From: Cohaesibacter sp. ES.047
GTDB lineage: Bacteria > Pseudomonadota > Alphaproteobacteria > Rhizobiales > Cohaesibacteraceae
Length of the DNA stretch: 64,000 nucleotides
Direction of reading: 5' to 3'
Assembly: GCF_900215505.1 (NCBI RefSeq)
Contig: NZ_LT907844.1
Coordinates: forward strand, 1,708,501-1,772,500
This document shows, one piece after another, positions 21,572-38,233 of this stretch. The notes under the pieces were generated by a model, which saw nothing but the letters and a program-made list of their open reading frames with translations, made no database searches and was not told the origin of the DNA. How positions within the stretch are numbered: the stretch's first letter is position 1; every line of letters starts with the position of its first letter. A program made the translations under genes and the position numbers.

Positions 21572-23731
21572 TTATTTCGGCAGGGCGTAGACCGCTATCT
21601 GGTCGCCGACCGTCGGCTTGAGGATCGAGTTGCCGCCGCTGATAAAGGCCACATACTCTTGTCCCATATATTGATAGACGGCAGGGTTGGCGACGACCGG
21701 GGCTTCGAGTTGGTCGGACCACAGCGTCTTGCCGGTTTTGAGGTCATAGGCTCTGACCTTGCCGTCCATGGTGGACCCGATGAAGACGAGGCCGCCGGCG
21801 GTAACCGCTGGACCACCAATCGTCGGGGAGCCCATGCTCTCTGGCATGAAAAAGCCGTATCTCTGGGATTCACCGATTGGCTTGCGCCATTTCACGTCAC
21901 CGGTGGTCATGTCCAGTGCGACCAGTTCACCAAACGGAGGCTCCCAGCAAGGCATGCCGAGCCAGTTCATGGCATTCATCAGCGACATGCCATAAGGCGA
22001 GCCAAGCTGCGGGTGGAAGCCCTGCTCGTTGCCCGAACTGCCGTTGATTTGATCATAGTCTTTGCGGGCAAAGAGCTTGATATACTGCACAATGTGGCTG
22101 GTGTTGACGATAGCCGTCTGGCTTTCCGGATCGAAGGCCACGCCACCCCATTGGACGCCACCGGCGCTATCGGGATAGGTCAGTACACCTTCACCTTTAG
22201 TGGTCGGCGGGGAATACATGCCGTTGTAGCTGAGATCATCGAACAGGGCCGAGCAGGAGCCGCCGCCGACAAGATCGGCAAGCCACCAGACATCAGGTTT
22301 TTTCGACTGATCCAGAAGCGGGGCAGGCTTGGTCGGGAAGGGCTGCGTTGCGGCATAAACCTCACCCTCGACGCTGCCGTCGCCCTGAGGCACAGGGCGT
22401 TCTTCGATCGGCCAGACGTCTTCACCGGTTTCGCGATTGACCACGAACAAGAAGCCCATTTTGGTGGCCTGAAGCAGTGCCGGGATCTCTTTGCCGTCGA
22501 CGGTGATATCCATCAGGGTCGGGGCGGAGTTGATGTCATAGTCCCAGACGTCGTGATGGACCCACTGACGCGACCAGACAACCTTACCTGTATCAAGGTC
22601 GAGTGCTGTCGTTGATGTGGCATAGGGGATCTGTTGCTTGCGATTGCCACCCCAATAGTTGGGAGAGGGCGAGGCGACCGGTAGGTAGACAAGCCCGAGA
22701 GCCTCGTCCACGGACATGGCAGTCCAGACGTTTGCCGTACCCGTTTGCTGGCGGATGTTTTCAGGGATCGTGTCGAATGACCACTGCAATTCGCCAGTCT
22801 GCGGGTCAACCGAGAAGACCGCGCCCGGTGGCGCTTCGGAATATTGCCAATCGCTGCCGGCCCAGCCCATGATCAGGTGATTGTCGGTGACGGTTGGTGG
22901 CTGAAGCATGGACAGCGGAAAGCGATCCTTGCGGGTGTTCCACTGGTTGACGTCGAGTGCACCATTGTCGCCGAAATCGGCGCATGGCTTGCCTGTGTCT
23001 GCGTCAACTGCAAACAGGCGGGCATCCATCGTGCCGATGTAGACGATTTTTTGACAGGCTTCCCCTTCGACTGGGTCTTCTGCCTGCCAGTAGGCCACAC
23101 CACGGTTTTTCAGGGCTGGCTGGGTGAGCGCCTTGAGTGTCGATTTGGTATCAAACGCCCATTTTTGCGCGCCGGTTGCCGGATCAAGTGCAAGGATGCG
23201 ATAGAAAGGGGTGCCGATATAAAGGGTGTCGTTGGCAAAAACCGGGGTTGCCGACCAGACGGTTGCCGGCAGGTCGCCGCTACCATCCGAGATATCTCCG
23301 GTGTGGACTTCCCAGACCTTTTCGAGATCGCCAACGTTGTTGGCGTTGATTTCGCTGAGGGGGGAGTATTTCTGGGCGCTCAACTGACCGTGGAAGCTGT
23401 CCCAAACGGGCGAATCCGGCACAAGCGGAATGCTTTTCTTGTCGCGCGGCTCGGTGTTGAGGATCGGCTCGACGATCGCCTCGTCGACATCCCGGATCGG
23501 GGCCGGCGCGACGTAATTGCTGTTGGCTGCCGCGTTTTCAGCCGCGTTTTCAGACTCTGTGGCGGCCTCAGTGTCTGCTTCTGCGTCGGGTGTTGCAGAC
23601 GGTGCGGACATTGTTGGGGAAACCGTAAGCGGTTTTTCCGTCTCGCTTGTTTCCTGAGCGACGGATGTCTGTAACCCGAAGGACAGGAAGACCGTGCTGG
23701 CGAGGAGGACGCCTAGTGTTTGCTGTCTCAT
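21572..23731 (-). CDS. PQQ-dependent dehydrogenase, membrane glucose/quinate dehydrogenase family
   Basis: The 719-aa product has a signal peptide (MRQQTLGVLLASTVFLSFG) and an acidic, Ala-rich linker (about 30-75). An eight-bladed quinoprotein propeller follows, with W-motifs such as VWEVHTGD, AQKWAFDT and GELQWSFDT. Marks of the membrane glucose/quinate/shikimate subgroup are ASPSPNYWGG, WVHHDVWDYDINSAPTL and GMPCWEPPFGELVALD. It oxidises a sugar or polyol in the periplasm and passes electrons to quinone. Unlike classical mGDH it lacks N-terminal membrane helices; a separate four-helix protein is encoded just upstream with a 4-base overlap. An AAGGAG site supports this start. Confidence 0.9.
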   Translation of the reverse strand: MRQQTLGVLLASTVFLSFGLQTSVAQETSETEKPLTVSPTMSAPSATPDAEADTEAATESENAAENAAANSNYVAPAPIRDVDEAIVEPILNTEPRDKKSIPLVPDSPVWDSFHGQLSAQKYSPLSEINANNVGDLEKVWEVHTGDISDGSGDLPATVWSATPVFANDTLYIGTPFYRILALDPATGAQKWAFDTKSTLKALTQPALKNRGVAYWQAEDPVEGEACQKIVYIGTMDARLFAVDADTGKPCADFGDNGALDVNQWNTRKDRFPLSMLQPPTVTDNHLIMGWAGSDWQYSEAPPGAVFSVDPQTGELQWSFDTIPENIRQQTGTANVWTAMSVDEALGLVYLPVASPSPNYWGGNRKQQIPYATSTTALDLDTGKVVWSRQWVHHDVWDYDINSAPTLMDITVDGKEIPALLQATKMGFLFVVNRETGEDVWPIEERPVPQGDGSVEGEVYAATQPFPTKPAPLLDQSKKPDVWWLADLVGGGSCSALFDDLSYNGMYSPPTTKGEGVLTYPDSAGGVQWGGVAFDPESQTAIVNTSHIVQYIKLFARKDYDQINGSSGNEQGFHPQLGSPYGMSLMNAMNWLGMPCWEPPFGELVALDMTTGDVKWRKPIGESQRYGFFMPESMGSPTIGGPAVTAGGLVFIGSTMDGKVRAYDLKTGKTLWSDQLEAPVVANPAVYQYMGQEYVAFISGGNSILKPTVGDQIAVYALPK

Positions 23732-24108
23732 GCTACAGCTCCTTTCGCGCCATGTGTGCTTGATTGGGATTTGTCTGCTACGCCCCATATGGCACCGATC
23801 AGTGCGACGACCATGGCTGCGATAAGCCACCATTCATGGAGAAAATATCCGGCTGCGATCGTGCAAAGAATGTCGGCAACGATCAGGGCCTTGACCGTAA
23901 AGCGGAAAGCCCCTTTAGGGAGCATAGGGTGAATGAGTGCGGCGAGAAGCATGATGCCGGTCGAGAAGATGACAAGGGCCGCCCCAATCGTCCCGTTCAC
24001 GCCAGTCAGTGGTGTCAGATAATAATAAAGCGATATTCCCAGCCCAGCCGCTGATCCCAGAAGGATCAGGCCTGTGGCGAGTGAATACCGTTGGGAAATG
24101 GCATTCAT
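23728..24108 (-). CDS. Four-helix membrane protein, likely anchor of the quinoprotein
   Basis: The 126-aa product has four transmembrane helices (about 9-28, 36-60, 68-85, 90-108) and a short soluble tail. It resembles the N-terminal membrane domain of membrane-bound glucose dehydrogenases, which is normally fused to the propeller. The stop overlaps the quinoprotein start (ATGA), so the two are translationally coupled. A role as membrane anchor or quinone site is inferred from size, topology and position. The EcfG promoter at 24249-24273 drives the pair. Confidence 0.68.
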   Translation of the reverse strand: MNAISQRYSLATGLILLGSAAGLGISLYYYLTPLTGVNGTIGAALVIFSTGIMLLAALIHPMLPKGAFRFTVKALIVADILCTIAAGYFLHEWWLIAAMVVALIGAIWGVADKSQSSTHGAKGAVA

Positions 24109-24441: not shown

Positions 24442-25701
24442 TCAGTCGGTCTGAGGCGAAAAGAACAGGATCATTCGACAGTTTTCGCCGTTTTCGTCAC
24501 TTTGAACGTAGCCGGAGAGCATGGTCGTCACTCTCTCGCCGGTCTCCTGTTGCAACTGGCATTCGGTGGCGTTGACAAAGCCTTTCACAAACCATCCGGT
24601 GCGGACGGGCTCGCTGCCAAGGTGACGCGATTGCGTCGTCAGAAGAGATGACAGCTTCTGATCGACGAGGTCTTCGGGATCTTTCTCCAGTGTTGACGAA
24701 ATCTGGTGATTGGCCTGAAGGATCTCTCCCTGTTCGTTGATCACAATGGCTGGCAACGGCATTTTCTGGATCAGTTCGTCGATCTGCGCAGCATTGTGAC
24801 TTGCCTGGCGCTCGGCTGTTCTGTGATCCGTGACATCGTGCAGGGAAATGACGGCGCCGATCTTCTTGCCTTGCTGATCAAGGATCGAGCGGCCATGGGT
24901 GCTGACAATGTGTGGCGTATCGCCGTAACGATCAACGACAATCTCGGACTGGTTCTTGTGGTTGTCATTGAAGGCCCGTGTCAGCGGGCTGTTGCCCATG
25001 TCCAGCGGCGTGACGCCGTCGGCCTTGAACAAGCGGTGGCTGGTGATCAGAGGCATCAAAAGGCTGAGAGAATTCTCGATGCCGAGCATTTCGCTGGCGC
25101 TCTTGTTGAACAGAACCGGAAGGCCATTGTCATCGCAGGCGATGATGCCATCCTGCGCATTGTCGAGAACGGCGCTGAGATATTCCTGCTCGATTTCGAG
25201 TTCGTGGGTCTTCTCCTGCACCAGTTCTTCGAGATGCTCGTTGGCGGCGGCCAACTCTTCCTTGGCGAGCTTGCGAGAAATGTGCGCGAACATGCGGGCG
25301 CCCAGGATCGTGAAATTGACAGGCTTTTCAATGTAGTCTACGGCACCGCTTTGCAGAGCCTCGACATGATCCCTGGTTTCTTCACGCGCCGTGACGACGA
25401 CGATCGGCAGATCCAGATGCGGATAGAGCTCCTTGACACGCAACAGAACGTCGTACCCGCTCATTCCCGGCATGACAAGGTCCAGCAGCACAAGATCGGG
25501 CGTTTCGTTCTCAATGGCCGCGAGCGCTTCTTCGCCCGTTGCAGCCAGAACGACTTCGTAGCCTTCATAGTCGGCAAACAGTCCGAGGATTTCTCTCAGT
25601 TCATTGTCATCATCAACGATCAGAACCTGCGGTTTCTGCCGGTTGTGCTGTTTATCGAGGTGCGGAGGCGCGCTCAATGCGTTCATCATGTCGGTTTTCA
25701 T
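24442..25701 (-). CDS. Response regulator with two PAS domains (no output kinase)
   Basis: The 419-aa product has a receiver domain (about 24-145: VLIVDDDNE, phosphoacceptor Asp74 in LVLLDLVMPGMSG, Lys in YIEKPVNF), a coiled-coil linker (about 148-180, KEELAAANEHLEELVQEKTH) and two PAS domains (about 180-300 and 305-415). It ends without a kinase, GGDEF or DNA-binding domain. It is the last gene of a phosphorelay set after a sensor kinase, receiver and Hpt protein. It may act by protein contact or as a phosphate sink. Confidence 0.85.
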   Translation of the reverse strand: MKTDMMNALSAPPHLDKQHNRQKPQVLIVDDDNELREILGLFADYEGYEVVLAATGEEALAAIENETPDLVLLDLVMPGMSGYDVLLRVKELYPHLDLPIVVVTAREETRDHVEALQSGAVDYIEKPVNFTILGARMFAHISRKLAKEELAAANEHLEELVQEKTHELEIEQEYLSAVLDNAQDGIIACDDNGLPVLFNKSASEMLGIENSLSLLMPLITSHRLFKADGVTPLDMGNSPLTRAFNDNHKNQSEIVVDRYGDTPHIVSTHGRSILDQQGKKIGAVISLHDVTDHRTAERQASHNAAQIDELIQKMPLPAIVINEQGEILQANHQISSTLEKDPEDLVDQKLSSLLTTQSRHLGSEPVRTGWFVKGFVNATECQLQQETGERVTTMLSGYVQSDENGENCRMILFFSPQTD

Positions 25702-25747
25702 TCACTCTCTCCATTGATCTTTCTTGCTGTCTGATACGGCCCACTTT

Positions 25748-26125
25748 CTACTTTCTGTTTTGAAAGGCGGGGATCTGGGCATCGTATAGGGTTGATTGTT
25801 CGGGGCTGGCTTCTTCCACCAGATCCTTGAGGTCGCTGAACAATGCTTCGATCCTTATTTCCTGTTCCTGGGTGATCGGGCCTGCCGTGTTTCCCAGTTC
25901 CTTGAGATATCGTTCCAGTTTGGCGGCCGACTGGCTGATTTCGTTGAACCCGATGGTTCCGCTGCTGCCCTTGACCTTGTGTGCACGGTCTGCGGCTTCA
26001 ATGGCTATGTGCTGGCACTGGTCTCCAGCACAGTGGAGCCGGGTCAGGCTGAGATCGATCTCAGCGAGTTCCTGTCCCAGCGTGGTGCAATGCCTCTTGA
26101 TCAGGGCCCGCAGTTGCTCAATCAT
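25748..26125 (-). CDS. Histidine phosphotransfer (Hpt) protein
   Basis: The 125-aa all-helical product carries the Hpt motif AHKVKGSSGTIGF with the phosphorylatable His49. Such domains shuttle phosphate between receivers in multistep relays. Its ATG overlaps the stop of the receiver gene by four bases (ATGA), so it is translated with it. Confidence 0.88.
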   Translation of the reverse strand: MIEQLRALIKRHCTTLGQELAEIDLSLTRLHCAGDQCQHIAIEAADRAHKVKGSSGTIGFNEISQSAAKLERYLKELGNTAGPITQEQEIRIEALFSDLKDLVEEASPEQSTLYDAQIPAFQNRK

Positions 26126-26529
26126 CCTGTTGCGCGCTCCTCACCCAGATAGTTCTGCCAGATGCAGGATACCTTGTAGGGCAATTCAATTGGATCGAAT
26201 GGCTTGATGATCACGTCAATGGCACCGTTGTCGCGATATTCCTTGACCTCGTGGCGCTGAGCCTTGGCTGTGAGAAACACCACCGGGATGTTGGCTGAGG
26301 CGGGGTCTTTTTTCAGTTTCTCGAATGTTTCGGTTCCATCCATGCCCGGCATCATGACGTCCATCAGGATCAGGTCTGGGGCGAATTGTGGCACTTTTTC
26401 AAGCGCTTCCTGACCACTGGCGCAAAGGTCGATGGCGAAACCGCCAAGGGAGCCGAGCGCGAGTTCGGCAATCGCTCGAATATCTGGATCATCCTCGACA
26501 TAGGTTATGCGTTTGAGTTGCTGTTGCAT
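26122..26529 (-). CDS. Single-domain response regulator (CheY-like)
   Basis: The 135-aa product is a lone receiver: acidic pair in YVEDDPD, phosphoacceptor Asp57 in LILMDVMMPGMDG, Thr in VVFLTAKAQ, Lys in VIIKPFDP. With the kinase just upstream (17-base gap) and the Hpt protein downstream it forms a four-part phosphorelay. It has no output domain. Confidence 0.92.
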   Translation of the reverse strand: MQQQLKRITYVEDDPDIRAIAELALGSLGGFAIDLCASGQEALEKVPQFAPDLILMDVMMPGMDGTETFEKLKKDPASANIPVVFLTAKAQRHEVKEYRDNGAIDVIIKPFDPIELPYKVSCIWQNYLGEERATG

Positions 26530-26546
26530 TGTTTTCAGCCTCCTTT

Positions 26547-28928
26547 TTAGGCAATGCCTCTTAGTGGCTCCGTTGTCGTGTCTTGTTCTTCGGGTATCTC
26601 GAGTGCGGACGTTTCAGCGACCTTGAGGCGCACATGGAAGGTAGTGCCCACGCCCTCCTCGGTTTCAAAGCTGATGTCACCACCATGTGCCCTGACGATT
26701 TCTTTCGAGATGGCAAGGCCCAGTCCGGACCCCCCTGTGCGCCGGTTGCCGGAATTGTCTGCCTGGGCGAATTTCCCGAAGACCTGCTCCTGGAAGGCTG
26801 CCGGGATCCCCTTGCCATGGTCCGTGACGGAGATGTGCAAGCGATCCTTTTCGCGTTCCGCAGCGATCCGCACCTCACCGCCGTCCGGTGAATGCTTGAC
26901 GGCGTTCGATATGAGGTTGGTCATGACCTGTTCGATACGGTACGGGTCGGCCGATACAACAAGGTTTTGGCTATGGCATTCAAGCTTGAGTGACACACCA
27001 TACTGGCGGCCGTATGCACGATTTTCACGGATGTTTCTTTCGAGAAGGTCCACAATCCGGATTGGCTCGACGTCATAGGTCAATTTGCCGGCCTCGATTT
27101 TTTCCATGTCGAGGATGTCGTTGACCAGATGGGTCAGCCGGTCACAGTTGTCGTAGGCGATATCGAGCATTTTACGCGGTTGCTCTGGCAGATCGCCGGG
27201 CATGATCGAGCGAACCAGACCAAGAGACCCCTTGATTGACGTAAGGGGTGTGCGCAGCTCGTGGCTGACCTTCGAGACGAACTCGCTTTTCATTGTCTGG
27301 ACTTTTTGCAGCTCCGTCAGATCGGTCATGATGCCGGTGTAATAGGTCTCGCCTTTGACGCGCAGTTTGCTGACGGCCAGATGCACCTGAACCGATGAAC
27401 CATCCTTGCGAACGGCGGTGACCTCGCGTCCGACGCCGATGATATTGGGCTTGCCTCCGCTGGCGAAACGCCTCAGATAGTCGTTGTGTCGCTCCCGATC
27501 ATAGGCATTCATCAGCATCGAAACATTTTTGCCAATCATTTCCTCGCGGTCGTATCCGAACAAACTGCTTGTGGCCTGATTGACGTCTTTGATGATCCCG
27601 CGCTTGTTGATCGACAGAATCGGGTTTTCTGCTGTCGCAAGAATGGCTTTGATGCGTTCCTGCTTCTCTTCGAGGCTGGCCGCCATTTGATAGACGGACC
27701 GCAGCAGGATACCGACTTCATCGCGGCGCTTCCGGCCTTCGACCTTCAAGCTTTCAAGTGGGGCTCCCATTGAAAGGTTCGATGTTGCCTTGGTCAGCAA
27801 TTGCAAGGGGCTGGCCATGTAGCGGGTCAGAATGGAGGCAATGATCGTCGCCACGACAACCAGCATCAGTGTGATGACGATGATCTGGTCGCGCATGACA
27901 ATGCTCTGCTCCATCAATAAAGACATCGGCGCGACAGCTGCGATCAGAATGGAGTGGTGCTGCAATTCCTCGGAAAGATGCAGCCGTGCAACTCGCGCCA
28001 GATAGTCATCGGTTTGCACGCTCCAGCTTTGGCCTTTGGCTGAGTGGGCTGCGCCTTGGAGCAATTGGCCAATGGCCGGATATTCTTTCTGCAATCTGTA
28101 GGGCGTCCCCAGATCGCGACCGAATGTTTTCGTTTCATCGGGATGAGAGAGATAGGCACCGGTTTTGTCGGTCATCAGGAAAATCTTTTCCCGCTCCATA
28201 ACATTCGTCAGCCGTTTGATCACCCGGGACATGTTGGTGTTGATGACGATGACACCAAGCAGTTCAGCGTCGCGCCCATAGACCTTGCTGGCCACGCGCA
28301 TCACGGCAACGTGGGGCGTCTCGATCTCATTGCGTTCACGGTTCAGGTCAATGCCGAAAAAACGCACCCTGTCCTGCAAGTCGGCCAATGTTGCGGCAAA
28401 ATATGCCCGAGTACTCTTGTCCTGCAGACCATTGCCTTTGACGCGTGTGGGATTGCCTTGGCCATTGTTGATCCGGACCAGTTCCATCCCTGTCTTGTCG
28501 ATCAGACGGATCTGCAAGAGATCCGGGTTGCTTTCTGCCAGTGAGAGAAAGATCTGGGCCAGTCGGTCTTTCCAGACGGCTTCCTTGATGTTTGCGATCT
28601 GTTCGCTACCGCTTTCGGCGCGCGCGTTCAGAATGCCCTGAATGGGAGGGGTTCCGGCAAGCATCCTGACATTGCGCTTGGCATCGTCTGTTGCGATCTT
28701 CAGATCACGGGCGGCCTGTTGAACCGCGAAGTCAAGTCTTTCACTCTCTCTAGAAATATTCGTTTCCTGATTTTGCCAGTATTGTAAAAAACCGACAAAA
28801 ATCGACGTACACAAAACAAGACCAATCGCCATAGCAAGAAAAGGCGTGAAAATGCTATCCGAAATATTTATGTCTTTTTCTTCGTAAATGTTCATTGTTG
28901 TACATTTCAAAAAGAAGGGCGTGCTCAT
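26547..28928 (-). CDS. Membrane sensor histidine kinase (Cache-HAMP-PAS-HisKA-HATPase)
   Basis: The 793-aa kinase has a first transmembrane helix (about 28-50), a large extracytoplasmic Cache-type sensor (about 55-340, including FLMTDKTGAYLSHPDE), a second helix (about 343-365), HAMP, then PAS (about 425-540: NPILSINKRGIIKDVNQATS). HisKA follows with VSHELRTPLTSIKGS (His556) and HATPase_c (NLISNAVKHSPDGGEV, DHGKGIP, GGSGLGLAISKEIV). It lacks its own receiver; the next genes supply receiver and Hpt in trans. An ATG at 28895 is an alternative start, and neither start has a clear ribosome-binding site. Confidence 0.92.
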   Translation of the reverse strand: MSTPFFLKCTTMNIYEEKDINISDSIFTPFLAMAIGLVLCTSIFVGFLQYWQNQETNISRESERLDFAVQQAARDLKIATDDAKRNVRMLAGTPPIQGILNARAESGSEQIANIKEAVWKDRLAQIFLSLAESNPDLLQIRLIDKTGMELVRINNGQGNPTRVKGNGLQDKSTRAYFAATLADLQDRVRFFGIDLNRERNEIETPHVAVMRVASKVYGRDAELLGVIVINTNMSRVIKRLTNVMEREKIFLMTDKTGAYLSHPDETKTFGRDLGTPYRLQKEYPAIGQLLQGAAHSAKGQSWSVQTDDYLARVARLHLSEELQHHSILIAAVAPMSLLMEQSIVMRDQIIVITLMLVVVATIIASILTRYMASPLQLLTKATSNLSMGAPLESLKVEGRKRRDEVGILLRSVYQMAASLEEKQERIKAILATAENPILSINKRGIIKDVNQATSSLFGYDREEMIGKNVSMLMNAYDRERHNDYLRRFASGGKPNIIGVGREVTAVRKDGSSVQVHLAVSKLRVKGETYYTGIMTDLTELQKVQTMKSEFVSKVSHELRTPLTSIKGSLGLVRSIMPGDLPEQPRKMLDIAYDNCDRLTHLVNDILDMEKIEAGKLTYDVEPIRIVDLLERNIRENRAYGRQYGVSLKLECHSQNLVVSADPYRIEQVMTNLISNAVKHSPDGGEVRIAAEREKDRLHISVTDHGKGIPAAFQEQVFGKFAQADNSGNRRTGGSGLGLAISKEIVRAHGGDISFETEEGVGTTFHVRLKVAETSALEIPEEQDTTTEPLRGIA

Positions 28929-29179
28929 ACATGTCTTGTTCTTATTATTTCATTCGGCTGATGTAGAAAAAGTTAAGCGATCAAATTGCAATCAAAATAT
29001 AATTATTATTATAAATGTCCAAAATTATTTTTGTATATTCATATTTTTACTTAAGTAGACGATCCGTTTTATCAAAATCTTGTTTTGTGTTGTTGATGGT
29101 AACTTTTTGAAAACTTAGAAGTGAGATTTTGATGGTTAACACTCTTTGTTAGGCAAGCTGCAGGATTAGTAGAAACTCG
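28929..29179. promoter_or_regulatory. AT-rich divergent promoter region
   Basis: This 251-base gap separates the phosphorelay genes from the receiver/zinc-ribbon gene cluster. It is far richer in A and T than the surroundings (for example a run of ATAATTATTATTATAAAT near 28998). No EcfG box was found. Both transcripts should start here, and a nucleoid protein or dedicated regulator may bind. I could not place specific -35/-10 boxes. Confidence 0.55.
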
Positions 29180-31039
29180 ATGACTGCTTTACATCAAATC
29201 AAACCGATTGCAGATTCCACCGAGCCCATGGATATCAAGTCTGACGGGCTCAGGATTCTGGTGGCTGAAGACAGTTCGATCACGCAGGATCTGATCAAAC
29301 TGGTCCTGTCTCAACGTGGCCATCTCGTTGATATTGTTGATGATGGAGAAGAAGCTCTGCGGGCCTTGCGGGGCAAGATCTATGATGTCGCATTGCTCGA
29401 CTATCACCTACCCAAGCTGGATGGCGTTGACCTGCTGGCGCAATTCCTGTCCGAGGCTGGCAATCGACCGCTACCGTGTTTTGTTGCCGTGACGGGCGAT
29501 GTAGAAGGCTTGTTGGCACATCGGTCCAATTGCGAGCATTTCGACCGGATCATTCCCAAACCTCTCAATGTCGAGGAAATCCTTTCGCTTGTCGATGAGA
29601 TTGGCGGCAAAGAAGGGCTGGGCCCGGAGCAAGGCAAAACTGCAGAAGGGACTAGACCAAAGACTGATCCACAGCCCGAGGCTTTCGAGCAGATCCCGAC
29701 GCGCAAGTCGAACCGGGTTCATCATTCGGTTCTGTCAAGCATTGGCTCTGATTGCCACTTTCTGCGTTGGCCAGCCGACTTTCAGGACAAGGCTGGGTCT
29801 GAGGGTTGGCCGGATGCTGATGAAGGGGCGGGGGCATATGATGGCATTCTGATCGAAGAAGCCGCAACGGCAGCGTCCCTTGACAGTTTGTGGCAGAGAC
29901 CGGGATTGCATCTGCTTCCTCTCATTGATCTTGTCGGAGGTCTTGGCCCTCTGGCAGATGTGGATGCCTCGAAGCTGGCCGTGACCGCTGGCAATGTCAT
30001 CGAGGAGACAATCGAGAGATTTCACCAAAGACGCAATGCGCTTCACCGCGACATTCTCATGTCCAAGGTTCTGGCCGACAAGCTGCTGGCGCGCATTTAT
30101 GTATCCAGCCGACCGCTGGAGCCGTTCTATTCCTATCAGAGCCTTGAGGCGGTGATCTACAACATATCGCTGGAAAGCCGGATCGTGCTGGAGGAGGCTG
30201 GCAAACTTGCTGAGAACGGATTTTTGAAGCCTGCCTTTTTCGAGCGCTTTCATACTTGCGGTGGCTGCGGAAGTTCCCAGTTCAATGTGCGCGAGGAATG
30301 CCCAACCTGCCGGTCTTCGAACCTGCACGAGGACAATTATCTGCATCACTTCAAGTGCGCCCATCAGGCGCCCGAAGCGGATTTCATGCAAGGGGATGAG
30401 TTGGTCTGTCCCAAATGCCGCCAACGCCTGCTGCATTTCGGGAGCGACTATGACAAACCGGGCACGGTCATCACCTGCCAATCCTGTCACCATTCGACGT
30501 CCGAGCCCAACATCGGGTTCGTGTGCCTTGCTTGCGGGGCTCACACCGATGGCGATGCCATTCGGACGCGGGATGTGTTCGGCTTCAGTCTGACGGACAA
30601 GGCTGTCGATTTCCTCCGTGCTGGTCAGTCTTATCTGGGGTTCACCGAAAATGTCCTCAAATTCTCGGATCTGCCACTTGATCTGGTGGTGGCTCTCAAT
30701 GAGGCCGCGCGGCAGTTCAACGAAACGGGCACGCCATTTGCCCTGTTGGAGATCAGGTATGATCGGGCGCGGGAGCTGGAGCGGGAACACGGGCCGCGGC
30801 TGTTCCGGAAAATGCGGGAGCAGTTTTTAGAGAATCTGCGCAACCTCTTTGCAACCGCTCAGGTCGGGGCAACGATGAAAAGTGTTCGAGGCCATTCCTT
30901 CGATTTTGCCTTGCTGCACCAGACCGATCCGGACCGTTTCAAGACAATGACGAACGATCTGATTGCGCGGGCCGGGCAAGGGCTGCGGGATGATCTCAAG
31001 GCACGGATTGCCGTGTTCGGCCCCGGAGACCTGTTCTGA
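29180..31039 (+). CDS. Receiver plus TackOD1-like zinc-ribbon output protein
   Basis: The 619-aa product starts with a receiver domain (about 24-145: ILVAEDSS, Asp74 in ALLDYHLPKLDG, Lys in IIPKPLN). A variable linker and a helical region follow, then a cysteine-rich module at about 360-452 with CGGC, CPTC, CPKC, CQSC and CLAC pairs plus an HHFKC segment, likely binding several zinc ions. The C-terminal 160 residues look like a degenerate cyclase-type domain without a GGDEF signature. The cysteine module resembles TackOD1 output domains as I remember them, not verified. It overlaps the next gene (TGATG) and probably controls it. Confidence 0.75.
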   Translation: MTALHQIKPIADSTEPMDIKSDGLRILVAEDSSITQDLIKLVLSQRGHLVDIVDDGEEALRALRGKIYDVALLDYHLPKLDGVDLLAQFLSEAGNRPLPCFVAVTGDVEGLLAHRSNCEHFDRIIPKPLNVEEILSLVDEIGGKEGLGPEQGKTAEGTRPKTDPQPEAFEQIPTRKSNRVHHSVLSSIGSDCHFLRWPADFQDKAGSEGWPDADEGAGAYDGILIEEAATAASLDSLWQRPGLHLLPLIDLVGGLGPLADVDASKLAVTAGNVIEETIERFHQRRNALHRDILMSKVLADKLLARIYVSSRPLEPFYSYQSLEAVIYNISLESRIVLEEAGKLAENGFLKPAFFERFHTCGGCGSSQFNVREECPTCRSSNLHEDNYLHHFKCAHQAPEADFMQGDELVCPKCRQRLLHFGSDYDKPGTVITCQSCHHSTSEPNIGFVCLACGAHTDGDAIRTRDVFGFSLTDKAVDFLRAGQSYLGFTENVLKFSDLPLDLVVALNEAARQFNETGTPFALLEIRYDRARELEREHGPRLFRKMREQFLENLRNLFATAQVGATMKSVRGHSFDFALLHQTDPDRFKTMTNDLIARAGQGLRDDLKARIAVFGPGDLF

Positions 31040-32315
31040 TGTCGGGCCATCTTGCAGACGGAATTGACTTCCTTTCTGCCCAGAGCCCAGCGGGCCTGCT
31101 GGCGCTTTACTGGTTTGTGCTTCTTTTCGAGGTGCCGCGTTATGCCCTGTCCTTTCTGGTGGCGGCTTTTACGACGCGAAGCGACGACAATGTGGCCAGC
31201 ACATCGGATGGCGCGACGGTTTGGGACGGGCGCCTGTCCGTCATCATCGCCGGGCATAATGAGGAAAATTCCATCGAACGCTGCGCTCGCAGCTTGTGGG
31301 AACAAAGCCTGAAGCCGGATGAGATCGTGGTGATCAGCGATGGCTCGACGGACAATATGGCCCGCACCCTGCGCCGTTTGCAGGTGGAGGGGATCGTGCA
31401 AAAGGTGCACTGCACCCATTTGCGGGCGGGCAAATCTGCGGCAACCAATCTGGCGGAACGACTTGCTGACGGCGATGTTCTCGTCAATGTGGATTGTGAC
31501 TGCTCGTTTGACCGGCATGCGCTTCGCAGCATTGTTGCGCCAATGGTGGACGAGAGAATTGGCGCGGTTTCAGGCAATATCCTTATCAGGGCGCAGGAGA
31601 AAAGCCTCTGGTCGGCCTTTCAGGCAATTGAGTATCTGATCTCGATTTCGCTGGGCAAGCGGGTGCAGTATATGTTGGATCAGGTGACATGTGCGTCGGG
31701 AGCCTTTGCGGCTTTTCGGGCGACGGCCTTGCGGGGTGTCGGGGGCTGGATGCCGGGGGCGGCGAGGATCTTGATGTCACCTTGCGGCTTCGGCGGAAGG
31801 GCTGGAAGATCGCCTTTGCGGCCGGTGCAATCTGCTATACCGATCCACCGCAAACAGCGACCGCGCTCGTCAAGCAAAGGTTCCGCTGGGAGCGGGATGC
31901 CGTGCGTCTTCGCTATCGCAAGCATGTCGGGCTGATGAACCCCTTCCATGCTGGTTTCAGGCCGCTGGAACTCATGCATGAGTTGGAGTTCCTGATCTTC
32001 AATGTCATTGCTGCGGTGGCTTTGCCCTTTTATCTGGTCTGGTTGTTTGCAACCTATGGAGATTTGGCCTTGCCGGTCCTTTTGGGCGCGCAGATTGGCC
32101 TGTTTTTGCTCGATTTCCTTGTTTTCTTCATCGCCGGTTTTGCAACGCCCAAAGCCCAGTCGTTCCAGCTTATCCCGTTCGTTGCCGGCTACAGCATCTT
32201 CTATGGCAATTTTCTGAGGATCATCCGATTGCTGGCCTATGGGCAGGAGTGGTTTTTCCGCAGTTCCTACAAGGATAGCTATGTGCCCGACAAGGTTCAC
32301 GATGTCAGGGAATGA
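31039..32315 (+). pseudogene. Processive GT2 polysaccharide synthase, interrupted by a frameshift
   Basis: The first part (31039 to about 31755) encodes an N-terminal membrane segment and the GT2 core: SVIIAGHNEENS, ISDGSTDN and the VNVDCDCS metal/nucleotide motif. At the G-run 31755-31759 the frame breaks. In the next frame the protein resumes with GGEDLDVTLRLRRKGW, the QRFRW motif of processive synthases (cellulose, hyaluronan or alginate type), and four C-terminal helices. One extra G would restore a protein of about 425 residues. It may be a true mutation, a slippage-variable site, or a sequencing error. An HlyD-type adaptor gene follows. Confidence 0.85.
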
Positions 32316-32388
32316 GGGGTGAAACGAACATGCCATATCTGATGCCGAACGTCTTATCGGCCAACCATTGCCAGAGGAGGGTCTTGAT

Positions 32389-33384
32389 ATGAGAAGTCTT
32401 AAAAAGCGTCCGCGGTCCGACAATCTGGTCAACCAGTCACGCCGCCACTCAGGTTCACTTGGTCGCCGGATCTATCTGGGCTTGCTGATTGTCTTTGTCT
32501 TTTTCGTTGCGAACTATTTCTGGGGTGATCTTATTTTCCTCAGAGGGGATGGTCTGGTGATGCGCGACAAGACCGTGATTGCAGCGAGCTATGTCTCTCG
32601 CATTGACGAGGTTGCCGTGACGCCGGGGGCCGTGGTCAGCGAGGGGGAAGAAATCCTCCACATCGCGTCGCCCGAGCAACTGGAGCGGCTGGCTGACCTT
32701 TCAACGCGGCAGGCGGATCTGATCCAGCGATCGGCCGAGTTTCGTCTGCGCAAGCAGATCGCAGACCGAATGCTGCCTCTTGCCAAGGAACGCCAGCAAA
32801 AGACCGGTGAGCTTCTGGATATGGTTGGGGGGCTTAAAAGCAGCGGCAACCTCAGCAACGAGCGGTATCATGACATTCTGGCGGAAAGCTTCGACGCGAG
32901 CTCGCAGCTGGCCAGATTGATGGCGGATCAGGACACGCTGTCCGATCAAATGGCGTCGCTGGAGACGGCCCGAACCGAGGCGCATATGGCTTTGAAGAAC
33001 CTTCAGGATCATTATTCACAAGGCGTGATCCGGTCGCCGGTCACCGGTACGGTGGGAGCGCATGTTCCGGTCCCAGGTTCGGTCTATCGCTCGGGAGATC
33101 CGATGGTGTCGATCTTTTCGGGGGACGCCTATGTGTTGACCTATTTGCCGCGCCGCTATCTCTTTGCCATCGAGGTGGGCATGGAGGTCAACGTTTCCAG
33201 CGGCAGGCAGTCGGTGGCAGGGGTGATCGATGCCATTCTGCCCGTCTCGGATATGCTGCCGCAGGAGTTCCAGAGCAATTTCAAGCCGCGCGAGCGGAGC
33301 CAGTTGGCAAGGATCCGACTGGTCGAACCGGACCAGTTCCCTCTTTATGAAAAAGTCAGTGTATCCAGCCGCTTGATGTGGTGA
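32389..33384 (+). CDS. HlyD-family membrane fusion protein
   Basis: The 331-aa product has one transmembrane helix (about 27-45), a biotinyl-lipoyl-like half motif (VIAASYVSRIDEVAVTPGAVVSEG), a coiled-coil hairpin (about 90-205) and the second half motif (GVIRSPVTGTVGAHVPVPGSVY), then a beta-barrel. This is the periplasmic adaptor layout. It resembles Alg44 without the PilZ domain. A GAGGAGG site eight bases before the ATG fixes the start. Together with the GT2 synthase it suggests export of a polysaccharide across the envelope. Confidence 0.87.
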   Translation: MRSLKKRPRSDNLVNQSRRHSGSLGRRIYLGLLIVFVFFVANYFWGDLIFLRGDGLVMRDKTVIAASYVSRIDEVAVTPGAVVSEGEEILHIASPEQLERLADLSTRQADLIQRSAEFRLRKQIADRMLPLAKERQQKTGELLDMVGGLKSSGNLSNERYHDILAESFDASSQLARLMADQDTLSDQMASLETARTEAHMALKNLQDHYSQGVIRSPVTGTVGAHVPVPGSVYRSGDPMVSIFSGDAYVLTYLPRRYLFAIEVGMEVNVSSGRQSVAGVIDAILPVSDMLPQEFQSNFKPRERSQLARIRLVEPDQFPLYEKVSVSSRLMW

Positions 33385-33408: not shown

Positions 33409-34692
33409 TCAGTCGGCTTTGTGGCGGCGCGTGATGCTATCGGGGCGTCCGGGCAGGGAGAGACGCATATCGCCCTTGGGTCGCTGGGCGATGACCTTGC
33501 CCTTGGCGATGACGCAGAGGCGGTCGGCACGCAGGCGAATGGCCTCGATCGGGTTGCCTGCATCCAGAATGACCATGCTCGCCTTCTTGCCTACGTCGAG
33601 CCCGTAATCTTCTAGGCCCATGATCGCGGCACTTTCTTTGGTGACCATATCGAAGCAGCGGCGCATATCGTCCGGGCTGGTCATCTGGGCGACGTGAAGA
33701 CCCATGAATGCGACATCAAGCATGTCTGCGGTGCCCAGCGAATACCACGGATCGAGCACACAATCCTGACCAAAGCCGACGCGAATACCGTAGGACAGCA
33801 TTTCCGGCACGCGAGTCTGGCCGCGGCGCTTGGGGTATGTGTCGTGGCGGCCTTGCAGCACGATGTTGATGAGCGGGTTGGGAATGGCCGAAACTTCGGC
33901 CTCCGCCATCAGCGGCAGGAGTTTGGAGACGTAATAATTGTCCATCGAATGCATGGATGTGAGGTGCGAGCCTGCGACGCGTCCCTGCAGCCCGAGGCGC
34001 TGGGTCTCAAAGACAAGCTGTTCGATATGGCGCGACAGCGGGTCATCGCTTTCATCGCAATGCATGTCGACCATGAGGCCGCGCTCGGCGGCGATTTCGC
34101 AAAGCTCGGTGACCGAGCGTTTGCCGTCTTCCATGGTGCGTTCGAAATGGGGGATGCCGCCGACCACATCGACGCCCATATCAAGCGCTTCGATGGTACA
34201 GGCTCTCGCGTCCGCGGCGCGATAGAAGCCATCCTGCGGAAAGGCGACCAGTTGCAGGTTGATATAGTCCTTCACCTTGTCCTTGACTGACAGGAGTGCG
34301 CGCACGCCCTTAAGACCGTCCCGATCCGACGTGTCGACGTGGCTGCGAATGGCAAGCAGGCCCATGGAGGCGGCCCAGTCGCAATAGGTGAGGGCGCGGG
34401 CTTCGATCTGCTCTTCGGTCTGGATCGGCTTTAGCTCGCCCCACAGGGAAATGCCTTCAAGCAGGGTGCCGGAGGCATTGATGCGCGGGGTGCCGTAGGA
34501 GAGCGTGGCGTCCATGTGAAAATGCGGGTCGACCAACGGCGGGGCGACGAGATTGCCACTGGCGTCAATGACCTCTGCGGCCTCGGCCTCGATGTTTGGC
34601 TCGATGGCCGCAATCACGCCGTTGGAAATCGCGATGTCGGCTTGTCTTCCATCGGGAAGACTGCCGCCCTTGACGATCAGATCGAAGCTCAT
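33409..34692 (-). CDS. CodA-like amidohydrolase (cytosine deaminase family)
   Basis: The 427-aa product has the length of E. coli cytosine deaminase and its landmarks: DPHFHMD metal site, RSHVDTSD, LQLVAFPQDG, MHCDESDD, AGSHLTSMHSMDN, NPLINIVLQGRHDTYPKRRG. The metal Asp loop reads FGQDCVLDPWYSLGT where E. coli has GHDDVFDPW: the metal Asp (Asp313 equivalent) stays, but the next, substrate-contacting Asp314 is Cys. The substrate may therefore not be cytosine; another cyclic ureido or aminated base is likely. It overlaps the permease gene by four bases and belongs to the BMP transporter operon. Confidence 0.85.
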   Translation of the reverse strand: MSFDLIVKGGSLPDGRQADIAISNGVIAAIEPNIEAEAAEVIDASGNLVAPPLVDPHFHMDATLSYGTPRINASGTLLEGISLWGELKPIQTEEQIEARALTYCDWAASMGLLAIRSHVDTSDRDGLKGVRALLSVKDKVKDYINLQLVAFPQDGFYRAADARACTIEALDMGVDVVGGIPHFERTMEDGKRSVTELCEIAAERGLMVDMHCDESDDPLSRHIEQLVFETQRLGLQGRVAGSHLTSMHSMDNYYVSKLLPLMAEAEVSAIPNPLINIVLQGRHDTYPKRRGQTRVPEMLSYGIRVGFGQDCVLDPWYSLGTADMLDVAFMGLHVAQMTSPDDMRRCFDMVTKESAAIMGLEDYGLDVGKKASMVILDAGNPIEAIRLRADRLCVIAKGKVIAQRPKGDMRLSLPGRPDSITRRHKAD

Positions 34693-35633
34693 CTTTCACC
34701 TTTTTGGTAGGGAACCATCAGGGCCTTGGGATAGGTGGCCCGGCGGGCCATCACAATGAGGGCCAGAATGGATAGAAGGTAGGGCATCATCAGGAAGACC
34801 TGATAGGGAATGACGCCACCGGTCAATTGTTGCAGGCGGACCTGATAGGCATCGAAGGCGGCAAACAGGATCGTGCCCAGAAGAGCCTTGCCCGGCCGCC
34901 ATGAGCCAAAGACCACCAGCGCGATGCAGACCCAGCCGCGCCCGTTTACCATCTCGAAGAAGAAGGAGTTGAAGGCAGACATGGTCAGGAATGCACCGCC
35001 GATGGCCATCAAAGCGCTGCCGACCATCACCGCCCCCATGCGCATGGCGACGACGGAAATGCCCTGCGCCTCAACGGACTCGGGGCTTTCGCCCACGGCA
35101 CGGACCGCAAGGCCGAGCGGGGTCTTGTAAAGGATATAGGCCACAAGTCCGGCGCAGAGGAAGGCGAAATAGGTGAGTGGTGTCTGGGTGAAAAGCGCTT
35201 CACCCAAAAACGGAATGCTGGACAGGCCGGGGATCGCGAAAGGCTCGAAGGCGTCGATTTTCGGGGGGGAGGTCACTTTGGGCAGCACAAGGCGATAGAT
35301 ATAATAGGTCAGCGACGTGGCCAGCAGGGTGATGCCGATGCCTGTGACATGCTGGGACAGGCCGAGCGGCACCGTAAGCAGCCCGTGCAGCGCGCCGATT
35401 GACAGGCCGATGAAGGCTGCGATCATGATGCCGAACCAGAGATCGCCGCCGAGATAGACCGTTACCCAGCCAGCAAAGGCGCCTGCGGTCATGATGCCTT
35501 CGATGCCAAGGTTGAGGACGCCTGCGCGTTCGCAGATCAGTTCGCCCATTGTGGCAAAGATCAGCGGCGAAGCAATGCGGATGGTTGCGACCCAGAAACT
35601 GGTGGTCAGAAGGATGTCGAGAGCTTCCATCAT
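34689..35633 (-). CDS. ABC transporter permease (nucleoside/base, BMP-type system)
   Basis: The 314-aa product has about nine helices and the BPD_transp_2 pattern of nucleoside importers: GELICERAGVLNLGIEGIM near the N-terminus and RAVGESPESVEAQGISV in the cytoplasmic loop. It starts five bases after the other permease with a GGAG site. With that permease, the double ATPase and the BMP lipoprotein-like binding protein it forms a complete importer. Confidence 0.92.
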   Translation of the reverse strand: MMEALDILLTTSFWVATIRIASPLIFATMGELICERAGVLNLGIEGIMTAGAFAGWVTVYLGGDLWFGIMIAAFIGLSIGALHGLLTVPLGLSQHVTGIGITLLATSLTYYIYRLVLPKVTSPPKIDAFEPFAIPGLSSIPFLGEALFTQTPLTYFAFLCAGLVAYILYKTPLGLAVRAVGESPESVEAQGISVVAMRMGAVMVGSALMAIGGAFLTMSAFNSFFFEMVNGRGWVCIALVVFGSWRPGKALLGTILFAAFDAYQVRLQQLTGGVIPYQVFLMMPYLLSILALIVMARRATYPKALMVPYQKGER

Positions 35634-35637
35634 GGGT

Positions 35638-36687
35638 CTATCTCCATCTGACGCGGTAGCGGGTGAGCATGATGGCAACCACCATGGTGAGAAGAGCGGT
35701 GGCAACCATCACGTCGGCAATGTAGCTGGGGACACCAGCCGAGCGGCTCATGGCATCGGCACCAACGAAGATGCCTGCAACGAAAATCGCCGACAGAAGC
35801 ACGCCAAGAGGATTGAGCAGCGCCAGCATGGCAACAACCACGCCGGTCATGCCGTAGCCGGGCGAGAGATCAAGGGTCAGATTGCCTTTGAGGCCCGCGA
35901 CTTCCGAGAAGCCCGCGAGGGCTGCAAGGCCACCGGAGAGAAGGGCGGTCTTGGCCAGAACCCGATTGACCGGAATGCCCGCAAAGCCTGCAGCCTTGGG
36001 ATTGTGGCCGACGGCGCGCATCTCGTAGCCAAGGGTGGTCTTTTTCATGATCACCCATGTGATGATGGCCGAGGCGACCGCGATGACGAAGCCATAATGC
36101 AGCCGCTTGCCCTTGACGATGCGGCCAAGGCGACCTTCCGGGTCGATGCTTTCCGAGCGGGGCCAGCCAAGGCCCATCGGGTCCTTGAGAGGGCCTTCGA
36201 GCAGCATCGAGACAAACAGCAGGATGACGAAATTGAGCAGCAGGGTCGTGACCACCTCGTCGACACCAAAACGGGTCTTGAGAAGGGCGGGGCCGAGCAG
36301 CATCAGCGCGCCGCCAATCATGGTCGCGAACATGATGGATGGGATCAGCAGATAGGCTGGCAGCGGCAGAGCGCCGGTGCCCATGATGACCGTGACCGTT
36401 GCGCCGACATAAAGCTGGGCCTCTGCACCGATGTTCCAGAGCTTGGCGCGGAAGGCAACAGCCACGGCAAGGCCGGTGAAGATGAGCGGTGTTGCCCGCG
36501 TCAGGGTCTCGAACAGCGCAAATTGGGAGCCTGCGGCACCCTTGGCGACCAGATAGAAGACAGAAAGGGGCGAGGCTCCCGCCAGGAGTACCAATATCGA
36601 GGCGAAGATCACCGTGGCGGCAATTGCGCCCAAGGGATACAGGAAGGTCGTCTTGAGCGACGTGGACTCTTTGGGTTCAAGCCGCAT
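35638..36687 (-). CDS. ABC transporter permease (nucleoside/base, BMP-type system)
   Basis: The 349-aa product has about ten helices and typical motifs: LFETLTRATPLIFTGLAVAVAF, KLWNIGAEAQLYVGA and RAVGHNPKAAGFAGI. The start at 36687 lies inside the end of the ATPase gene (11-base overlap), a usual arrangement in these operons. It pairs with the second permease. Confidence 0.92.
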   Translation of the reverse strand: MRLEPKESTSLKTTFLYPLGAIAATVIFASILVLLAGASPLSVFYLVAKGAAGSQFALFETLTRATPLIFTGLAVAVAFRAKLWNIGAEAQLYVGATVTVIMGTGALPLPAYLLIPSIMFATMIGGALMLLGPALLKTRFGVDEVVTTLLLNFVILLFVSMLLEGPLKDPMGLGWPRSESIDPEGRLGRIVKGKRLHYGFVIAVASAIITWVIMKKTTLGYEMRAVGHNPKAAGFAGIPVNRVLAKTALLSGGLAALAGFSEVAGLKGNLTLDLSPGYGMTGVVVAMLALLNPLGVLLSAIFVAGIFVGADAMSRSAGVPSYIADVMVATALLTMVVAIMLTRYRVRWR

Positions 36688-38233
36688 CGGGTGCTCCCGC
36701 GTTGGTGTCCTTGTGGCCTGCCATGAGCACGCCAAGTTCCTGCACGCTGCGTTCGCCGCGCGCCGAGGGGCTCGACAATTGTCCCTCGCTGATGACGACG
36801 ATGCGGTCCGACAGGGTGCGGATCTCGTCCAGATCTTCCGATATCAGCAGGATCGCCGCGCCGCGCTTTCGCGCTTCCAGCAAACGATTGTGAACATAGG
36901 TGACCGCGCCGACATCAAGCCCGCGGGTCGGCTGGGCGGCGATGATGAGCTTGGGGTTGTCATCCAGCGCACGGGCCAGAATGAGCTTTTGCATGTTGCC
37001 GCCCGAGAGCAGGCGGATGCGGGCGTCGGGCGAGGGACATTTGACGTCGTAATCGTCAATCGCCTGTTCGGTGAAGCTTCGAGCCGCTTTCCAGTCCAGC
37101 CATCCGGCGCTGGAGAAGGGCTTGTTGCGGTAATTCTCGGAAATGGCGTTTTCCATCACGGACATGTCGCCGATGGCGCCCATGGCGTGGCGATCTTCGG
37201 GGATACGGCCAACACCCTTTTTGAGGGCTTGGCGCGGTGACCACTTGTCCACTTCCTTGTTGCCGAGAAGCATGTTGCCCGTCTCTGGCGAGATCATGCC
37301 AGACAGGAGCGCTGCGAGCGCGACCTGTCCGTTGCCGGAAACGCCCGCAAGGCCGGTGATTTCGCCTTCGCGCAGGACGAGGTCGACATTTTCGAGCGGT
37401 GTGGACGTTCCCTGACGGCCAGTCGACACCTTGATCAGTTCCAATACGGGCTTGCCCGGCTCGACCGGCTCGACTTCGGGCACCTTGATTTCTTCACCCA
37501 CCATCAAGGCGGCCAGTTCGTGGCGGTCAGTTTCGCCGGTGTTGCGCTCGCCAGTCAGTTTGCCGGAGCGCAGCACAAGCACGCGGTCGCTGATTTCGAC
37601 GACTTCATGCAGCTTGTGGGAGATGAAGATCACCGACATGCCCTTGGCGATGAGCATCTTCAGCGTCTTGAAGAGGGCATCTGTTTCAAGCGGTGTCAGA
37701 ACGGCGGTGGGCTCATCCAGAATGAGGATGCGGGCGTCGCGGTAGAGCGCCTTCAATATTTCAACGCGCTGGCGCTCGCCAACCGTGAGTTCTGAGACCA
37801 TGGCATCCGGATTGACCGAGAGGCCAAAATCGCTGGAGAGCTTTTGGATTCGGGCGCGGGCAGCCTTGCGGTCAAATTTCCATGACCACAGGCTTTGGGT
37901 ACCAAGAGCGATGTTGTTGAGCACCGACAGATTGTCTGTCAGGGTGAAGTGCTGATGCACCATGCCGATGCCTGCATCCAGAGCGGCGGCGGGGTCGCCC
38001 GGGGGCAACTGTTGGCCGAAAATCTCGACCGTTCCTTCGTCGGCAACATAGTGGCCGAAAAGGATGTTCATCAATGTCGTCTTGCCAGCACCATTCTCAC
38101 CAAGCAGAGCGATGACTTCGCCCTTTTTTAGCTCGAACGCGATCGCGTCATTGGCCACCAGAGGACCAAATCGCTTGGTGATGCGGTCGAGGCGGAGAAC
38201 AATCTCCGCCTCTCTCGGGGTTTGGTTGGCCAT
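36677..38233 (-). CDS. ABC transporter ATP-binding protein, two fused ATPase domains
   Basis: The 518-aa product has two ABC domains. The first is complete (Walker A LLGENGAGKTTL, signature LTVGERQRVE, Walker B ILILDEPTAVLTP). The second has a degenerate Walker A (GVSGNGQVAL) and signature LLSGGNMQKLI. This is the standard layout for BMP-type nucleoside and ribose-like importers. It overlaps the binding-protein stop by one base (TAATG). Confidence 0.93.
   Translation of the reverse strand: MANQTPREAEIVLRLDRITKRFGPLVANDAIAFELKKGEVIALLGENGAGKTTLMNILFGHYVADEGTVEIFGQQLPPGDPAAALDAGIGMVHQHFTLTDNLSVLNNIALGTQSLWSWKFDRKAARARIQKLSSDFGLSVNPDAMVSELTVGERQRVEILKALYRDARILILDEPTAVLTPLETDALFKTLKMLIAKGMSVIFISHKLHEVVEISDRVLVLRSGKLTGERNTGETDRHELAALMVGEEIKVPEVEPVEPGKPVLELIKVSTGRQGTSTPLENVDLVLREGEITGLAGVSGNGQVALAALLSGMISPETGNMLLGNKEVDKWSPRQALKKGVGRIPEDRHAMGAIGDMSVMENAISENYRNKPFSSAGWLDWKAARSFTEQAIDDYDVKCPSPDARIRLLSGGNMQKLILARALDDNPKLIIAAQPTRGLDVGAVTYVHNRLLEARKRGAAILLISEDLDEIRTLSDRIVVISEGQLSSPSARGERSVQELGVLMAGHKDTNAGAPDAA

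Follow-up and report, generated by a model that had tools for sequence, protein, structure and literature searches.

A stretch of 64,000 nucleotides from the marine alphaproteobacterium Cohaesibacter sp. ES.047 (the window; contig NZ_LT907844.1, positions 1,708,501 to 1,772,500 of the forward strand) carries, at its positions 24,442 to 33,384, a plus-strand operon of three genes divergent from a minus-strand set of phosphorelay genes. On sequence comparison, the operon is of the mxdABC type known from Shewanella oneidensis MR-1: it encodes a regulator with a TackOD1 domain first, a processive family 2 glycosyltransferase (GT2) second and an HlyD-type periplasmic adaptor third. We propose that it is an mxdABC-type synthase whose regulator may have moved from cyclic di-GMP (c-di-GMP) towards phosphorelay input, a reading to which we give a probability of roughly 0.68. 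The original prediction, made from the letters of the window, knew of no described system with this set of genes; that claim falls, as the synthase half is of the Shewanella type. Its proposal of a new signal-controlled exopolysaccharide system survives as an apparently signal-controlled synthase operon built on the known Mxd machine. What appears to be new here is the receiver-fused, phosphorelay-linked Mxd variant, together with the link between TackOD1 and MxdA.

Comparison of the operon with Shewanella mxdABC

Primer sequences for the mxd promoter of S. oneidensis are given in passages of PMC3691769. Two of these have a zero-mismatch match in one genome among 129 of a single genus, and a third primer site lies just 5′ of the start of a gene for a 462-amino acid protein. 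The matched genome is presumably the S. oneidensis MR-1 chromosome. The 462-amino acid protein matches TackOD1 with an E-value of 4.7e-71 and GGDEF with 1.1e-4, the latter just below the cut-off, and its gene is followed by a GT2 gene and then by a gene for an HlyD-type protein. Primer sites, domains and gene order therefore identify these genes as mxdA, mxdB and mxdC. In direct comparison, the window regulator matched MxdA at 9e-21, and the two pieces of the window GT2, whose reading frame is broken (see below), matched MxdB at 7e-21 and 1e-16. An adaptor profile that includes the window protein matched MxdC at 1e-18.

The two operons thus share the order of a regulator combining TackOD1 with a degenerate GGDEF domain, a GT2 and an HlyD-type adaptor, with the regulator co-encoded with the synthase. 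They differ in that MxdA lacks a receiver fusion and retains an RxxD motif (RVTD), whereas the window regulator is fused to a receiver, lacks RxxD at the I-site and is adjoined by a phosphorelay; also, mxdD was not recognised in the window operon. According to passages of PMC7666153, MxdA binds c-di-GMP and contacts the receiver CheY3. Passages of an earlier report describe an indirect effect of MxdA on c-di-GMP levels and deficient aggregation of mxdA and mxdB mutants (PMC3691769). Among the literature matches listed, we found no report of a link between TackOD1 and either MxdA or a bacterial synthase.

The regulator (619 amino acids; 29180–31039, plus strand) consists of a receiver at residues ~24–141, TackOD1 at 295–470 (PF18551, E 3.3e-48) and a degenerate GGDEF domain at ~498–619. 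Residues ~176–290 give a weak receiver-like match, on which we base no assignment. The receiver keeps its phosphorylation residues (E30 and D31, D74, T105, K127). The TackOD1 signature of 11 cysteines, arranged as five CXXC and one HXXC, is kept at all 12 positions in 56/56 proteins, and its CXXC pattern is that given in passages of PMC5847659. The degenerate GGDEF domain is supported by fold and by a family profile, and the Pfam GGDEF model matches 9 of the 53 regulator relatives aligned (of 57; L050, L073, L092 and L100 were left out). The GG[DE]EF active site of an active diguanylate cyclase is absent from the window regulator, from MxdA and from all 71 tree proteins, and a motif scan of residues 496–619 of the window regulator found no RxxD. 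The original prediction had the architecture right but missed the degenerate GGDEF domain and the match to mxd.

Conservation of the three-gene core

A scan with the regulator alignment, run through one peptide pattern across 84,980 species genomes, gave 81 pattern matches, of which 56 were confirmed. The pattern is missing from MxdA and some relatives, so that these 56 loci cover part of the family. Since only the regulator served as query, its partner genes were unselected. Even so, a GT2 lies within 1.5 kb of the regulator in 56/56 loci and an adaptor no more than 3 kb away in 55/56, the exception (L098) ending 272 bases past the regulator; the neighbourhood search proposed by the original prediction thus recovers the same operon in other genomes. 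TackOD1, GT2 and adaptor also occur together in all 17 relative stretches that were fetched (4 plasmids and 13 genome stretches, five of them duplicating loci of the scan); gene models were built from these and the window, with alignments of 40 GT2s and 28 adaptors and another of 30 rows. In a separate draw of 398 genomes of the phylum, 18 matched PF18551, 15 of them above the cut-off at 16 places, and GT2 adjoins TackOD1 at every one of these 16, window included; three places below the cut-off gave no TackOD1 or GT2 match. Among plasmids, 9 of 155 matching records were viewed: GT2 stands beside TackOD1 in 9/9 and an adaptor is present in 8/9, the ninth operon (L105) stopping at the record end.

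The predicted TGATG coupling of regulator and synthase is present in the window at 31037–31041 (plus strand), and a stop–start overlap at the regulator stop is found in 37 of the 56 relatives (TGATG/TAATG-like in 21, ATGA in 16). Gene order varies in a few loci, with the adaptor ahead of the regulator in L115, L120 and L121 and between regulator and GT2 in L083. In L135 and L136, from the same phylum, the adaptor gene comes first, then TackOD1 and GT2, and a large additional gene (673 and 726 amino acids) lies just upstream. In L087 (Chelativorans), two successive GT2 genes separate TackOD1 from the adaptor. The operon of L073 (Methyloceanibacter superfactus) is broken in several frames, by draft errors or decay, and in L042 (G078) the TackOD1 frame overruns its usual end across GT2 in another frame, probably through a frame error near the stop.

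The adaptor gene of the window (32389–33384, plus strand; HlyD_3, 1e-10) is listed as an open reading frame (ORF) from a TTG at 32368, and its likely start is 32389. The profile of the 28 adaptors scores best with EmrA (1.6e-12). The ORF listing showed no outer-membrane partner in the window operon and no fourth plus-strand gene of at least 90 amino acids directly 3′ of the adaptor; shorter ORFs were not searched. L108, a Methylocystis plasmid, has a TolC-family gene shortly 3′ of its operon, a possible outer-membrane partner, and L140 encodes a possible mxdD of 122 amino acids with no Pfam match. Clustering of neighbouring ORFs over the 56 loci, judged by look only, gave one group of ABC exporters (in 14 loci), one of EAL-domain proteins (in 6 loci) and others of 4 loci each that mostly reflect Thalassospira synteny; none belongs to the core.

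Receiver fusion, I-site and phosphorelay genes

The minus-strand arm of the window has the composition originally predicted. A sensor histidine kinase of 793 amino acids (26547–28928) combines a dCache-like periplasmic sensor, HAMP, PAS, HisKA and HATPase domains (HATPase_c 7.6e-32, HisKA 5.3e-20, PF21623 1.5e-19, PAS 8.9e-17; the HAMP and dCache_1 matches are below the Pfam cut-offs) and has no receiver of its own. It is accompanied by a single-domain receiver (135 amino acids; 26122–26529; Response_reg 1.1e-26), which is probably a relay intermediate, a histidine phosphotransfer (Hpt) protein (125 amino acids; 25748–26125; PF01627, 3.5e-9), whose gene shares 4 bases with that of the receiver, and a receiver-PAS-PAS protein (419 amino acids; 24442–25701; Response_reg 4.7e-28, PAS 1.2e-14). 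An AT-rich intergenic region (28929–29179) separates the two arms.

Phosphorelay genes accompany the operon where the regulator carries a receiver, as it does in 23 of the 56 loci. Of these 23 loci, 17 have an Hpt gene no more than 8 kb away, against 0 of the other 33; the corresponding counts are 13 and 0 for a stand-alone receiver and 18 and 1 for a kinase. As 18 of the 56 loci have less than 8 kb on one side, we also counted the 38 whose flanks both exceed 8 kb, where Hpt accompanies 13/16 receiver-bearing regulators and 0/22 others. L073, excluded from the motif alignment, was counted by hand as receiver-bearing. The idea that Hpt could link the two sides of the locus is thus supported by co-occurrence only. 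The regulator occurs in 7 of the 18 genomes of the genus, that of the window (5.11 Mb, one contig) included; the other six have kinase, receiver and Hpt in 6/6 and receiver-PAS-PAS in 5/6, the latter being an optional member.

We placed these features on a GT2 tree of 72 rows, a quick tree with SH-aLRT (approximate likelihood-ratio) support only, which includes near-copies and drew long-branch warnings. It leaves out the window, whose GT2 is broken, as well as L054, L062, L073, L098, L122 and L127, and keeps, from the 17 fetched stretches, L036 and those shared with the genome scan. All 21 receiver-bearing rows fall into one clade of 31 (support 95). Two receiver-less sets also lie inside this clade, one of Phyllobacteriaceae, Mesorhizobium and Chelativorans and, on the opposite side, one of Microbulbifer. 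The receiver changes three times on the tree. At I-site distance before the dead GGDEF domain, 34 of the 40 rows outside the clade have RxxD, as against 1 of the 31 inside; MxdA, which is not in the tree, has it. The phosphorelay is an optional addition in one clade, outside the core. The Microbulbifer loci (L064, L068, L081) are gammaproteobacterial and have two GT2 genes flanking the TackOD1 gene; nested as they are in an alphaproteobacterial GT2 clade, they were probably acquired by horizontal transfer.

These distributions bear on whether the operon might still be controlled by c-di-GMP through a non-canonical site, with the receiver tuning or localising the regulator as CheY3 may do for MxdA. 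The GGDEF fold is kept, L052 has both RxxD and a receiver, and passages of PMC7666153 place a c-di-GMP effector and a receiver in one Shewanella network. However, the loss of RxxD from 30 of the 31 clade rows, together with the lack of a GG[DE]EF motif, makes such control unlikely in our view. A second alternative is that the Hpt arm serves only receiver-PAS-PAS and other targets, its adjacency to the operon being inherited linkage. The receiver-PAS-PAS gene does adjoin the Hpt gene, and the associations depend on few events; but receiver-PAS-PAS was found neither by L037 nor by many receiver-bearing loci with Hpt, and no receiver-less locus has Hpt, so that we consider inherited linkage quite improbable.

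Several observations weigh against a regulator that has moved to phosphorelay input in an mxdABC-type operon. The window HlyD protein and MxdC are not significantly similar by BLAST (E 0.17), the window regulator itself has no match to the Pfam GGDEF model, and the GT2 of the deposited assembly is frameshifted. L052 combines RxxD with a receiver, and RxxD is missing as well from the receiver-less Phyllobacteriaceae and Microbulbifer, so the receiver does not replace the I-site strictly one for one. Six of the 23 receiver-bearing loci have no nearby Hpt (three of them with short contig flanks); among the 17 Hpt matches, that of L070 (7e-5) is marginal. With only three receiver changes, few events underlie the Hpt and I-site associations: over three independent pairs, Hpt agrees in 1.4 on average and opposes in 0, which is not significant, and RxxD agrees in 0.9 and opposes in 0.2. 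Three pairs put the association beyond a statistical test, and the strong Fisher values are not read as probabilities, the loci being related.

The synthase and its frame break

The GT2 gene (31039–32315, plus strand) is present as two frames, 31039–31935 and 31689–32315, so the predicted opposite arm of receiver-TackOD1 protein, GT2 and adaptor is there but its GT2 is not one open frame. The break lies at ~31.74–31.77 kb, with a net frame difference of one base from the closest relative. Against this relative (G016), changes at the three codon positions number 33/240, 17/240 and 118/239 upstream of the break and 32/182, 11/182 and 75/182 downstream; third-position changes prevail on both sides, so the break is either recent or an assembly error, possibly one in a G-rich stretch. 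The frame break would also fit a decaying pseudogene cluster, with a dead GT2 and the remaining genes as remnants in the source strain. This we regard as quite unlikely, given the codon-position pattern upstream (118/239) and downstream (75/182), the open frames of the remaining genes and the possibility of an assembly error. GT2 is open in most relatives viewed; L054, L062 and L073 also appear broken.

The window GT2 matches Glycos_transf_2 (6.7e-25) and Glyco_trans_2_3 (1.9e-10), and the top NCBIfam type of the GT2 is PgaC_IcaA (1.3e-42). Membership in the PgaC equivalog, the poly-N-acetylglucosamine (PNAG) synthase, was rejected at 146.2 against a cut-off of 422.3 bits, a score taken on the Cohaesibacter relative L061, as the window GT2 is broken. 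Our first lead, the BgsBA family of mixed-linkage glucan synthases, was also rejected: the GT2 profile is closer to PgaC (7e-56) than to BgsA (2.9e-18), and full-length GT2s of the relatives measure 417–444 amino acids against 669 for the BgsA ORF (start ~5 codons early), which we recognised by the RTGD and HLHY motifs given in passages of PMC5567048. A search for 'bgr' regulators of mixed-linkage glucan gave no match inside two papers on this polymer, and none of the literature matches listed is rhizobial. The best-scoring GT2 relatives with solved structures include chondroitin and hyaluronan synthases. In L109, a plasmid of Rhodobacteraceae M382, galE directly follows the TackOD1, GT2 and HlyD genes, a hint on the sugar donor.

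Outside the two arms, a PQQ-type quinoprotein dehydrogenase gene upstream (21572–23833) and an ABC permease pair with ATPase downstream (34689–38233) look ordinary by eye.

Discussion

In the mechanism that we propose, the PgaC-related GT2 in the inner membrane would make and extrude a polymer, and the periplasmic adaptor would hand it on. A periplasmic signal would pass from the kinase through the single receiver and Hpt to Asp74 of the regulator's receiver, in this presumed order of phosphotransfer. Phosphorylation of Asp74 would then let the TackOD1–GGDEF part switch the GT2, through a putative contact between the two and with a sign of control that is likewise conjectural. The receiver-PAS-PAS protein probably serves the same Hpt as a further acceptor or sink. 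Given the CheY3–MxdA contact reported in passages of PMC7666153, action of a receiver on a TackOD1–GGDEF-like regulator is plausible; the fused receiver might then represent that contact in Rosetta-stone form.

Other synthase systems resemble parts of the locus. In enterobacterial cellulose synthesis, BcsE likewise has a synthase-linked dead GGDEF domain beside a receiver-like domain, but it binds c-di-GMP through RxxD and its receiver is degenerate, whereas the first receiver of the window keeps the phosphorylation residues; the passages of this paper (PMC7439463) do not mention TackOD1. The BgsBA system of Sinorhizobium meliloti pairs an HlyD-like protein with a GT2 in two genes (passages of PMC9495663), but BgsA has a C-terminal c-di-GMP domain (passages of PMC5567048). 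The PNAG synthase PgaC/PgaD shares the GT2 type, but E. coli pgaABCD has, by annotation, neither a TackOD1 regulator nor an HlyD adaptor. Archaeal proteins share the fusion of a receiver to TackOD1 and the CXXC pattern but belong to thaumarchaeal type IV pilus loci; in passages of that paper their function is called obscure and a GT2 partner goes unmentioned (PMC5847659, Galperin et al. 2018).

These comparisons connect an orphan domain, called obscure in passages of PMC5847659, with MxdA and with GT2 synthases across Pseudomonadota. The natural fusion puts the question of how phosphorylated CheY3 acts on MxdA into one testable protein. If the proposed switch of input is true, a biofilm synthase can swap c-di-GMP for phosphorelay control.

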